From assembly GCA_016793885.1 (NCBI GenBank), contig JAEUHE010000104.1, positions 1 through 33,207 of the forward strand: a stretch of 33,207 nt of DNA, in the 5' to 3' direction. This document shows, in pieces, positions 1 to 16,443 of this stretch. The DNA comes from Verrucomicrobiales bacterium. GTDB taxonomy: Bacteria > Verrucomicrobiota > Verrucomicrobiia > Limisphaerales > UBA11320. The number at the start of each line of letters is the position of its first letter. Position 1 is the stretch's first letter. The notes under the pieces were generated by a model. The model saw only the letters and a list, made by a program, of their open reading frames with translations, was not told the origin of the DNA and did not search any database. Position numbers and translations under genes: made by a program.

Positions 1-138
1 TTACGGACTGGCAGTTCACTTCCAGTTGCTCTCCACGGTCACATTGCTGTGCCGCGGTTACTTTCAGTCACAGGCCTGGTGAACATAGGCCTGACAGGGA
101 CTCTCACCCTGCTATGTTGGTGCGCTTCACAGTCGCAC
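1..138 (-). mobile_element. 5' end of a probable group II intron (truncated by window edge)
   Basis: Read on the minus strand, this stretch begins at 138 with GTGCGAC, matching the group II intron 5' consensus GUGYG. It continues through small hairpins (GTGCG/CGCAC at 120-124 and 134-138; CAGGG/CCCTG at 95-99 and 107-111; CAGGCCT/AGGCCTG at 71-77 and 87-93) and a GGGTGAGAGTCCC-type segment that I associate with domain I of bacterial group II introns. The junction supports insertion: the neighbouring hairpin repeat is shared with the copy at 5393-5414 up to base 139 and diverges exactly at 138. The maturase and the catalytic domain V would lie left of the window and cannot be checked. It could instead be another structured element. 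Confidence 0.5.
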
Positions 139-163
139 TAGCGTGGGCCGTGTCGGCCCATGG
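139..163. repeat. Dispersed hairpin repeat, copy 1 (TGGGCC-loop-GGCCCA)
   Basis: TAGCG followed by the hairpin TGGGCC (144-149), loop GTGTC, GGCCCA (155-160). The same core occurs at 5393-5414 and, with changes, at 16422-16443; a degenerate copy lies near 14347-14366. This copy lies just beyond the 3' end of the minus-strand dehydrogenase gene and is cut on its left side by the probable group II intron. Confidence 0.7.
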
Positions 164-192: not shown

Positions 193-3100
193 CTACTTCC
201 CTCCTCCAGGTCCTGACTGCTGCAGAAGATAGGCTAGCAAATGATTGAAGTCGGCTGGCGGTATTGCCTCGCCCAGATTCTCAGGCATCAGAGAGTTGGG
301 TGAGTCACGTCGTTCCTGGATGTCCTTCTTGGGATAGGAGGTTTCTTGCCCAGCGGCATTGGCCAGCACCACCAGGTCGCCCTCTTCCCGACGCGGCAAT
401 CCGGTCAGCACTTCGCCATCCTTCATGACCCACAGCTGGGTCCGGAAGGCCTGATCGACGTTCCGGTTGGGATCCAGGATGTCCTCGCAGAGACGTTCCA
501 ACCCGCGGTTTCCAATGCCGTCCAATTGGGGGCCAACCAACTTGCCGACCCCTTTCAGCTGATGGCATACGGCGCAGGCTTGGGCATACACAGCCGCCCC
601 CCGGACTGCATCCGCTTGAGTGGGGTTAAAGCCGTTACGCCGATCATCGATCAGCTTTTGCACCGTTTGATCCGCGTTCGGCAGCCCGGCGGTGAGCTGT
701 TCAATTCGGTCCTTGGAGGCGGGCAGCGTGGCCGACAGCTTGGAGCGGACGGCGGTTTCCTTGAGCAGGCGGGCGTTCACCTTGGATTGGCTGGCCCAAT
801 CCATCAGCTGCCCCGCCAAGACCGGATGCCCAGCCATCGTTTCGGCCAGCTTGGTCTGAATCCGCGACGAGGTCTGACGGAAGGCTTCCAGCAGGACATC
901 AGCGGAGCGTGCGGAATCCCCTTGGGCGAGGGCGGTGCACAGCTCGCGACGCAGGTGAGGCGACAGCAAGGGATCCGCCGCGAGCATACCCACGAGGGAC
1001 AGTCCGTCGGCCTTCGATTGCGACGTGAGGATACGCACTGCCGTCGACGCCACGGCGAGATCGGTGGAAGGTGTTTCGGCGAGTTGTTGGAGCACTGCTG
1101 AGAGACGGGCGAGATCCGCCCCCTCGGCGAGGTCGATTACTGTTTTGAGGTGGGCTCCGATGTCACGCGGAGCCAGTCGAGGCCAGCCGATCAGGTCGGT
1201 CTCAAATTTTCCTGCGGCGATCCAAGCATAGGAGGGTCCGTTGTCCTGGTCCACGATCTCGATGCGGGCGCGCTTCCCTTGATGTGGGGAAAGGTTCCAT
1301 ACAGCCGGGGTGGCTACATCGGTGCGAGGCGCGAAGGTCTCGGCCAGCACCTGTCCTGTCGAGGCCTCCCGCAAGATGACCCGGTTGGTGTGCTTGGCGG
1401 GTTGATCCGGAAATCCATCGTGTCCCGCGACGTAAAACTTCAGCTCGCCGGGAACCGTGAACTCGGAGGAAACGAAGCTTCCGGTCAGGGCTTCCCCACC
1501 GGGAGGCAGACTGCTGATCAGGGACAAAGCAACACCCGCTCGGTTGCGTCGTTCCTGAAAGATCCACGGGCTGGCGCTTTCCCTGGCTGGGTCAGCCGGA
1601 ACAGACACCCAGCCGCCGTCGGCCCCGATGAACTGTTTCAGCAGGGATTCGGCAACGTCGGTTGACCATTCGGTGACCGCGGGAAGTTTGGTGTGCCCTT
1701 TCTCGGCCAGTCCCTGCCGCATCGCCGTGAGCAATTCCGCCTGCTGCTGGGCGTCCTTGGCGAATGTGCGTTTGAGCAGGTCGATCAGGGCCGGCACTTG
1801 ATCCGGGGCGGTGTAGCGAGCGGCCTGCTTCAGGGCTCGAGTTTGAAAGCCGGCGTCGGATGGGAATTTCTGCAGGTGATGCAGCAGGAACTGGCCGGCC
1901 TCGGCCGACCCGACGGCCAGGGCGATATCGGCGATGATTCGCGAAAGCTCCGCGTCGCCGGCTTTCGACTTCCATTCTTCGAATCCACCCGGCAGCCGGA
2001 ATTGATTGCGCAGGGTGACTCGCAAGGCATGCCGCAGGTGGGTGTCAGCCGCGGGTGTCACCCGGAGGGCGGCCAACGTCGGCTGAATACCGGCCACGGA
2101 GGGGTGCATCGACAGTCCTTCGGCAGCGGCCCGTTTCACGTGAGCATCACTGTCCTCCAGTCCGCGCATGAGCAGATCGGATCCGACCGAGCTGGGCTTG
2201 GCTTGAGCGGCGATGGCGCGCAGAGTGTGGATTCGGACGAGCGGGCTGCTGTCGCCCCCGGCCGATCGGATCACCTCATTGTCCAATTTGCTCAGGCGGA
2301 GGAGCAGCCAGAGAGCACCGACTCTTTCTTGAGGACTGGCCGTTTTTTGGGCCAGAACCTGTTTGGCCAGGCTCGCCGCGGGCATGCCCACCCGATCGAC
2401 GAGTTCGTTGAAGGCGAGAGTGCGCAACACCGGAAGAGTGGAGCCGAGTTGTTTGATCAAGGCAGGGGCATCCAGGCGTGCCAGATTGGGAATCGCCACC
2501 GGCGGCGTGCTCCCCGCACCGGTGTAACGGACGCGCCAAATCCGGCCACGTTCGCGGTCGCGACCCGGATGCGTGAGCGGGACCTCATAGTGGCCAATGA
2601 TGCGGTTGTAGAAATCGGCGATGTAGAGGGCGCCATCTGGCCCCCACTTCAAGTCCACGGGACGGAACCAGGGGTCGTCGGTGCTCAGGAAATCGGGCAG
2701 TTCATGTCCCACCGGACTGCTTCCTCGCCACTCCACGCGATCGCGATTGATCCGGCTGGTCATCACATTTCCGATGAACAGGTTGCCCGCAAACTCGGCC
2801 GGCCATCCGTCGTGTTCGACCATTACAATGCCGGAGATCGCCGTGGAACCATGGCTGTGTTCGACCGTGGTAGGAGCGAAGCCCAGTCCGTCGTCGGGTT
2901 TGCCGAAACTCGGGTAGTGAGCGCCGGGGATGAGCTGATAGATCGGTGAGCTATGGCAGTCGGCAGTGTAGAAGTAACCCCGTTCGTCGACACACATGCC
3001 GAAGGGGTTGACCTGGCCCCAGGTCATTTGTTCCACCCGCGAGCCATCCGGGCGGAAGCGGTAGGTGTTGCCCGAGTTGAGGCTGATGCTGCTTCCGTCC

Positions 3101-3726
3101 TTGGCCTTGAAGGTCGAGTTGTTGTTGAAGCCGTGGGTGCCGTAGATCCAGCCATCGTTTCCGCGGATAAAGCTGGCGATGTTGCCATGGGTGTCCCGTT
3201 CCCAGCCCAGCGGGCCGAAGACCACCTCTTGGCGGTCTGATTTTCCGTCGCCGTCGGTGTCCTGGAAATACCAGATGTTGGGAATGCTCCACGCGAGGCA
3301 TCCGTTTCCGTAGGGGGTGATGCCGATAGGGATGTTCAATCCCTCGGCAAACGTAGTGACACGGTCGTAGCTGCCGTCCCCGTTGGTGTCCTCAAACACC
3401 TTAATGGCATCCCGCGCTGCTTCGCCTGGCTTTTTGGGGAAAGGATATTCGTAGGAGGTGGTGACCCAAAGGCGGCCGCGGGCATCGAAGGCCATGTTCA
3501 TCGGCTTGGCGATCTGCGGTTCCGACGCCACCAACTCGATGGTGAATCCAGGAGGGAGATGGAACGTCTTCGCTTGGGCGGCCGGCGTGAGCGGATCGGT
3601 GGGGCGAACCCCCTCGGCGAACGGGTCGGCGGCCTGGAGTCCGGCGGGCACCAGAACGGCGGCCACAATTCCGAGACTGTTCAAGGATAACCGACGGGAG
3701 GATGGAACGATGTTCTGCATGGCCAT
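193..3726 (-). CDS. PVC-type membrane-bound dehydrogenase with HEAT repeats and C-terminal cytochrome c (CxxCH)
   Basis: A large exported oxidoreductase of about 1177 residues. The N-terminus is a signal peptide ending near LQAADPFAEG. It is followed by a glucose/sorbosone-dehydrogenase-like beta-propeller (roughly 40-410) with phrases such as GLNIPIGITPYGNG and KWGPDGALYIADFYNRIIG. HEAT-like alpha repeats follow (about 415-700), then a beta-rich, possibly carbohydrate-binding module (about 715-865), more helical repeats, and a C-terminal cytochrome c domain with CAVCH at 1051-1055 and a later Met-rich segment that could give the axial ligand. This architecture is typical of Planctomycetes/Verrucomicrobia, where such proteins are thought to oxidise sugars or alcohols in the periplasm; the substrate is unknown. 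The frame opens with TTG at 3741, but ATG 3726 or 3720 places a better signal peptide. No partner gene is adjacent. Confidence 0.93.
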   Translation of the reverse strand: MAMQNIVPSSRRLSLNSLGIVAAVLVPAGLQAADPFAEGVRPTDPLTPAAQAKTFHLPPGFTIELVASEPQIAKPMNMAFDARGRLWVTTSYEYPFPKKPGEAARDAIKVFEDTNGDGSYDRVTTFAEGLNIPIGITPYGNGCLAWSIPNIWYFQDTDGDGKSDRQEVVFGPLGWERDTHGNIASFIRGNDGWIYGTHGFNNNSTFKAKDGSSISLNSGNTYRFRPDGSRVEQMTWGQVNPFGMCVDERGYFYTADCHSSPIYQLIPGAHYPSFGKPDDGLGFAPTTVEHSHGSTAISGIVMVEHDGWPAEFAGNLFIGNVMTSRINRDRVEWRGSSPVGHELPDFLSTDDPWFRPVDLKWGPDGALYIADFYNRIIGHYEVPLTHPGRDRERGRIWRVRYTGAGSTPPVAIPNLARLDAPALIKQLGSTLPVLRTLAFNELVDRVGMPAASLAKQVLAQKTASPQERVGALWLLLRLSKLDNEVIRSAGGDSSPLVRIHTLRAIAAQAKPSSVGSDLLMRGLEDSDAHVKRAAAEGLSMHPSVAGIQPTLAALRVTPAADTHLRHALRVTLRNQFRLPGGFEEWKSKAGDAELSRIIADIALAVGSAEAGQFLLHHLQKFPSDAGFQTRALKQAARYTAPDQVPALIDLLKRTFAKDAQQQAELLTAMRQGLAEKGHTKLPAVTEWSTDVAESLLKQFIGADGGWVSVPADPARESASPWIFQERRNRAGVALSLISSLPPGGEALTGSFVSSEFTVPGELKFYVAGHDGFPDQPAKHTNRVILREASTGQVLAETFAPRTDVATPAVWNLSPHQGKRARIEIVDQDNGPSYAWIAAGKFETDLIGWPRLAPRDIGAHLKTVIDLAEGADLARLSAVLQQLAETPSTDLAVASTAVRILTSQSKADGLSLVGMLAADPLLSPHLRRELCTALAQGDSARSADVLLEAFRQTSSRIQTKLAETMAGHPVLAGQLMDWASQSKVNARLLKETAVRSKLSATLPASKDRIEQLTAGLPNADQTVQKLIDDRRNGFNPTQADAVRGAAVYAQACAVCHQLKGVGKLVGPQLDGIGNRGLERLCEDILDPNRNVDQAFRTQLWVMKDGEVLTGLPRREEGDLVVLANAAGQETSYPKKDIQERRDSPNSLMPENLGEAIPPADFNHLLAYLLQQSGPGGGK

Positions 3727-3946
3727 GGGGTTAGTTTGCAACGGATTTTCGACGAACGGGAGGAGAATCTGTTCATTTGGTGGGGCCTCGGTGCACCGCA
3801 GATTTCGGGAGCTAGCCTGAAGACAGCTATCCAGTCCTCAAGAGATCTCCACCAGGGATGACACGCTTGGTGTGAGAACATTGGAAACAACCTCGACGTG
3901 TTTCACACTGCCCATTTCACTTTGCTCATTTTTTATTGGAGTTCCG

Positions 3947-5355: not shown

Positions 5356-5383
5356 GCGGGGAATCGTCCGGGGACGGACGACC

Positions 5384-5565
5384 CTACAATTGTAGCGTGG
5401 GCCGTGTCGGCCCATCGGAGGGGGAAGCGACGGAAACGAGGGAGGTGTTGCCCACGGATCACACAGATCACACGGATTGAGAGAAAACCAGGGGACCTCG
5501 GATCTCTTCATTTCTAAGTTTCGTTCCCGTCCGCGTGATCCGTAGGCAATACAGCCCCCTCTGTG
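5384..5565. repeat. Composite dispersed repeat (TGGGCC hairpin plus CCCACGGATCACAC palindrome), copy A
   Basis: Starts with CTACAATTGTAG (5384-5395) and the TGGGCC/GGCCCA hairpin (5398-5414). About 30 bases later a long imperfect palindrome begins at TGCCCACGGATCACAC (from 5449) and closes near GTGATCCGTAGGCA (5535-5548). Nearly the same composite recurs at 14346-14521, with the intervening sequence also conserved. It fills most of the gap before the BlaI-type gene. Frames through it encode only repetitive, non-conserved peptides. Confidence 0.8.
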
Positions 5566-16388: not shown

Positions 16389-16443
16389 CGCGCTGCCCCC
16401 ACTGAAGTGGGAACTCAGTTGTAGTGTGGGCCATGTCGGCCCA
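16389..16443. repeat. Dispersed hairpin repeat with CCCACT/AGTGGG extension
   Basis: A small hairpin CCCACT-GA-AGTGGG (around 16398-16411) is followed by the family hairpin TGGGCC (16427-16432), loop ATGTC, GGCCCA (16438-16443). The sequence before the second hairpin (TTGTAGTG) corresponds to TTGTAGCG at 5390-5397. It lies 34 bases beyond the stop of the convergent kinase gene and might act as a terminator, although no U tract follows on either strand. Confidence 0.6.

Follow-up and report, generated by a model that had tools for sequence, protein, structure and literature searches.

Group II introns of bacteria have been described at three types of target, namely homing sites, terminators and attC sites, and the targeting of hairpins has been assigned to class C (PMC4424553). 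Class C introns insert after terminators or at attC sites, according to the accounts of Robart 2007 and Quiroga 2008 that are cited in PMC4424553 and PMC7923331, and introns of the IIB type have been documented at hairpins resembling attC (PMC7923331). In the part of a 2022 survey considered here, introns of the g6, U1 and U2 groups are also found near predicted terminators (PMC8919778). REPs, for which a link with Y1 transposases has been mentioned (PMC2936281), can be invaded as well. A table in PMC1525189 places two of the nine copies of a group II intron of Pseudomonas putida KT2440 in REPs, and ISPpu9, ISPpu10 and ISPa11 are presented as REP-targeting insertion sequences.

The window analysed in this work is a stretch of 33,207 nucleotides from a Verrucomicrobiales bacterium. 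Its positions 1 to 138, read on the minus strand, very probably correspond to the 5′ end of a mobile group II intron for which REP/BIME-like palindromic repeats are the sites of retrohoming. The first-pass annotation of this DNA had placed an intron start with domain I-like features at 138, an empty-site comparison breaking exactly at that base and an insertion point five bases past a hairpin stem, and all three proposals stood. The minus strand from 138 opens with GTGCGACTGTGAAG, the 5′ splice site falls between 139 and 138, and the intron, present here with its first 138 nt (the start of domain I), runs on past the contig edge. The conserved 5′ end GUGYG and a structured domain I are both present. 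A nucleotide HMM built from 15 related introns, host genome excluded, matches the window solely at 138 to 1 on the minus strand (E = 3.9e-30). The annotation had named a covariance-model search as a check on its reading; such a model, built from 21 related introns with the host genome again excluded, finds a group II intron over model positions 1–140 at 120.7 bits (E = 8e-34), with a match starting at base 138. The 26 pairs of this model are 98% formed across the 21 sequences, and 17 of them show compensatory changes on both sides, a number reached by no shuffle and a signal that is lost when the partners are slid. The 138-nt stretch is not due to chance. A search of the window with Rfam, at gathering as well as permissive thresholds, gave no intron match, as is to be expected when the contig contains no more of the intron than the beginning of domain I and breaks off before domain V.

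The sequence upstream of the junction identifies the target. Positions 139–161 (TAGCGTGGGCCGTGTCGGCCCAT) are identical to 5393–5415 of the same window, and the first mismatch opposes the C at 138 to a G at 5392. Positions 139–163 are a REP half-unit that was broken by the intron and whose remainder is on another contig. They include the hairpin of the REP unit, TGGGCCG-TGT-CGGCCCA (144–160; predicted fold of −12.5 kcal/mol), which is separated from the junction by five bases, C-GCTA on the minus strand. The last four of these (139–142, minus strand) are the IBS1 of the 5′ exon and belong to the GTAG of the REP. The insertion at 138/139 is downstream of a 1182-aa reading frame (193–3741, minus strand) and outside it, with 54 nt separating the stop of this frame from the junction. 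The hairpin core occurs three times in the window versus 0.07 expected by chance. An intact, empty BIME-like target extends over 5364–5414, with a hairpin at 5364–5381, CTACAATTGTAG at 5384–5395 and another hairpin at 5398–5414. A second empty REP half-unit, which reads GGCCCACACTACA on the minus strand and has one mismatch in its hairpin, lies at 16420–16443.

The assembly of the host totals 8.7 Mb in 274 contigs, and searching it revealed ten intron 5′ ends and eleven intron 3′ ends, the latter outside the window, and thus 10–11 copies. Every end coincides with a contig edge, 5′ and 3′ ends are seen on separate contigs, and no contig spans one entire copy, probably because a repeat about ten copies deep was collapsed in the assembly. 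Intron copies explain at least 21 contig ends of this assembly. The first-pass annotation had also suggested that other introns be sought at the same hairpin: all ten 5′ ends are found at hairpin-N-RCTA/GTGCG (the slash marks the splice site), where N is C, T or A, next to stems of varied sequence (GGGCCG..CGGCCC, CGTCCG..CGGACG, TGTCCG..CGGACA and TGCGCCG..CGGCGCA) and within flanks that are unrelated to each other. The domain V/VI and 3′ junction that it expected to lie to the left of base 1 occur eleven times elsewhere in the genome, as all 3′ ends carry domain V/VI (49–52 bits against RF00029, cut-off of 40), terminate in CCTACCCCTAT and are followed by CA. Its prediction that the repeat resumes as CAATTGTAG was exact at six of these eleven junctions and inexact at the other five, two of which are close variants. 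An inverted second hairpin follows most CAATTGTAG-type 3′ junctions, and a clear second REP half is absent at three of the eleven 3′ ends. At the ten intron sites that were checked, most insertions are outside long reading frames; the copy at L002 may be inside an open frame.

Since a hairpin stands beside every intron 5′ end in the host genome, the REP-like hairpin could also be seen as travelling with the intron or being made by it, in which case the repeat would be a part of the element instead of its target. This explanation is extremely improbable in view of the about 100 strict half-sites that are empty of intron in the same genome (one in the reversed control). In addition, the stems differ among copies, whereas the introns show 94% identity or more over the length that they share, and the two flanks of the introns of Singulisphaera sp. 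GP187, once joined, give the empty repeat. As a side observation, two copies in G003, a genome of the same genus, are 5′-truncated with intact 3′ ends (L077 and L078), as expected for incomplete reverse transcription; the search of this genome for a full-length copy yielded only these truncated ones.

GTAG beside a hairpin and head-to-head pairing are marks of REP/BIME elements. The repeat targeted here, defined from a 0.82-Mb sample and a whole-genome pattern search, has the structure hairpin-AC-RCTAC-N(1-4)-GTAG-YGT-hairpin and often consists of two head-to-head units. It is a high-copy palindrome with the GTAG tetranucleotide, and it shares with the REP/BIME elements that have a RAYT the GTAG hairpin, the head-to-head pairs, a mostly extragenic position (seen at the ten intron sites) and a number of about 100 copies. 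It differs from them in its link to a Y1 transposase, which is suggestive here and concerns one of the six Y1-transposase genes of the host genome. This Y1-transposase-like gene (L103, 1465–2541 of C200) is followed about 95 nt past its stop by a head-to-head REP pair (about 2636–2690), and may possibly be the RAYT for these REPs. The idea of a high-copy dispersed hairpin serving as intron target, already put forward in the first-pass annotation, is confirmed by the ten 5′ ends and the about 100 strict empty sites. A reading of the hairpin as a terminator had to be abandoned, as no T-run was found after any of the ten intron-adjacent hairpins. The target hairpin is a REP/BIME-like unit and not a canonical terminator. 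A second hairpin repeat, CGGGGGTG..CACCCCCGGCTAAATCTCTTTGA, is present in nine copies in the 0.82-Mb sample of the host genome. It also displays GGCTA after the stem, but the next base is A and not C, and no intron was seen in any of these nine copies.

How this site is recognized could be deduced from an alignment of 52 distinct related introns, in which intron positions were tested for complementarity to the 5′ exon. The EBS1 loop is flanked by the conserved GGCGAGCCTGC and GCGAAGCC; its pairing includes the last three, four and five exon bases in 87%, 79% and 71% of the cases, versus 15%, 8% and 5% after permutation. The EBS1 of the host intron, read from a single copy, the longest one (L007), is UAGU; it pairs with both ACUA and GCUA, which accounts for the R in RCTA. 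A base in another loop, EBS3, covaries with the first base of the 3′ exon and is paired in 85% of the related introns (permuted: mean of 69%, maximum of 77%), with A–T and T–A switches in five of them; this evidence is from the relatives, the EBS3 of the host intron not being readable. On the IBS2 side, no covariation for an EBS2–IBS2 pairing was detected in the related introns past exon position −6, and no column between −7 and −19 was clearly over background. Nearly all members of the family have an upstream hairpin (median score of 17 versus 7 for shuffled sequences), which is usually spaced by 3–5 nt and seems to replace IBS2. Site recognition is class C-like in the sense that it combines a hairpin, a short IBS1 and the absence of IBS2.

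These features could simply denote an ordinary class C (IIC) intron that inserted after a transcription terminator which happens to be repeated. Besides the hairpin directly upstream, the short IBS1 and the lack of IBS2, none of the other reference classes comes as near to the lineage as class C in our tree of intron-encoded proteins (IEPs). However, the 70 proteins of the lineage form a clade of their own (support of 0.91), apart from the group made by GsI-IIC, 7uim and C183 of the host (1.0), with which it is adjacent (0.975). Moreover, the Rfam model RF02001 (IIC-like D1–D4) matches the C183 intron at 138 bits and no intron of the lineage, for which RF01998 is silent too, and the protein of this positive control scores 496 bits to GsI-IIC. 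The hairpins also belong to one dispersed repeat family, devoid of T-runs, and not to varied gene-end terminators. Membership of class C, the assignment made in the first-pass annotation, was rejected on the basis of the IEP tree and the D1–D4 model, and an ordinary class C intron is quite unlikely, even though the target is recognized in class C fashion. Within a tree of few references (GsI-IIC, 7uim, T.el4h, C183 and C76, with no labelled D, E, F, g6 or U1–U3), the lineage thus appears to work like class C but to be separate in protein and RNA. The upstream hairpin, the short EBS1–IBS1, the single EBS3–IBS3 pairing and the lack of a detected IBS2 are common to both; the lineage of IEP and RNA, the IBS1 (RCTA here instead of TTGT) and the REP/BIME target without T-run set them apart. 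The g6, U1 and U2 introns share with our lineage a non-class-C nature, a proximity to class C in the protein tree and insertion beside hairpins; the part of PMC8919778 considered here measures the distance to predicted terminators and reports neither repeat targeting nor EBS covariation.

For a retrohoming intron of this type, the following scenario may be proposed. The excised intron RNA, together with the intron-encoded reverse transcriptase/maturase, would bind a site at which the hairpin of the REP has been extruded from DNA in single-stranded form. EBS1 (UAGU) would pair with RCTA and EBS3 with the C after it, the hairpin substituting for the usual IBS2–EBS2 pairing. The RNA would then reverse-splice between RCTA and the CA that belong to the CTAC of the REP (GTAG on the other strand), and the inserted RNA would be copied to DNA, probably primed at a replication fork. 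What the data establish is the identity of the intron, its exact boundaries, its 10–11 copies, the constancy of the repeat as target and the EBS1/EBS3 covariation of the family; splicing, mobility and the use of single-stranded DNA are inferred. According to the table in PMC1525189, the P. putida intron also has copies inside REPs, which are a minority there compared with all ten 5′ ends here. Likewise, ISPpu9, ISPpu10 and ISPa11 have REPs in common with it as a target of mobile elements, although these are insertion sequences and not a retroelement whose RNA probably pairs with the site. In the literature, for which our coverage was partial, no report was found of an intron systematically occupying REPs with a matching EBS1, and this systematic match appears to be new. 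REP targeting would explain how ten or more intron copies are accommodated mostly between genes, and it brings together group II introns and REPs, both of which are mobile systems of ancient origin.

The protein that would drive this process is seen in part. The annotation had looked for a maturase to the left, where the contig stops at base 1; what the host genome shows, in the 3′ pieces, are the last ~40 codons of the IEP, while the reverse transcriptase of the lineage was not found in the assembly bin. A 234-nt 3′ piece has an open frame that ends in ...ENREYQNRWFEEHGLFSLAGYPTQ before the stop and is homologous to the C-termini of the relatives' proteins, and the C-terminus ...NRWFEEHGLFSLAGYPTQ in a 3′ piece matches the ends of their 445–453-aa proteins. 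The latter are encoded by 1.9-kb introns found in relatives of the same order, and the three that were scanned reach 366–387 bits against TIGR04416 (cut-off of 300). The missing middle of the host copies probably encodes the same protein. The only group II reverse transcriptases of the host assembly, those of C183 and C76, were discarded as the intron's own protein with 280 and 315 bits versus 720–840 for clear members of the lineage; C183 is a class C intron after a terminator-like hairpin (L098) and C76 a group II intron of another class (L099). A third candidate, the reverse transcriptase of C137 (L097, 4586–6022), was dismissed as retron-like (NF038233, 167 bits, under the cut-off of 235).

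The absence of a cognate reverse transcriptase from the bin would fit with host copies that lack an ORF and depend for their movement on a helper protein in trans, especially as ORF-less members of the lineage of 0.49–0.86 kb are common in genomes of the same order (L079–L085, L088). This possibility is rather unlikely, since the 3′ pieces retain the open and homologous C-terminus of 40 codons. Furthermore, the smallest host contig encountered has 3480 bases, so a collapsed internal contig of ~1.9 kb (below 2 kb) that carries the reverse transcriptase was probably removed by filtering and may for this reason be missing from the bin. Bacterial introns without an ORF have been described as rare (PMC4424553). 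In another genome (G175), where no cognate reverse transcriptase was found for them, two ORF-less copies of 485 nt are 98.3% identical and reside at unrelated hairpins.

Most relatives of the REP-targeting intron are from Verrucomicrobiota and Planctomycetota, and the remainder come from Acidobacteriota, Deltaproteobacteria and additional phyla. Singulisphaera sp. GP187 harbours 11 introns at the 3′ end of GAGCGTCGNGGA inside a dispersed repeat, the empty form of which, GAGCGTCGNGGACGGCATTCCCACG, has 113 occurrences at three or fewer mismatches (control: 0). Four introns of Verrucomicrobiales H5_VER1 are inserted at hairpin-ACTC/CARACGC, a motif with 130 occurrences in that genome (control: 1). 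In both cases, EBS1 matches the repeat of its own genome (L128 and L107), and these relatives use other dispersed hairpin repeats independently. This suggests that dispersed hairpin repeats are able to serve as landing pads for retroelements. On balance, we favour the view that a non-class-C lineage has adapted EBS1/EBS3 again and again to conserved bases next to the high-copy palindrome of its host, i.e. GTAG-type REPs here, the CGGCATTCCCACG type in Singulisphaera and the ACTCCAAACGC type in H5_VER1, and that dispersed hairpins are a general safe-haven class of target besides terminators and attC sites. Such introns would offer many natural EBS1–IBS1 pairs for predicting retargeting. Finally, single relatives were observed at hairpins of the ATTCCCGC..GCGGGAAT type (L168, L176 and L184).
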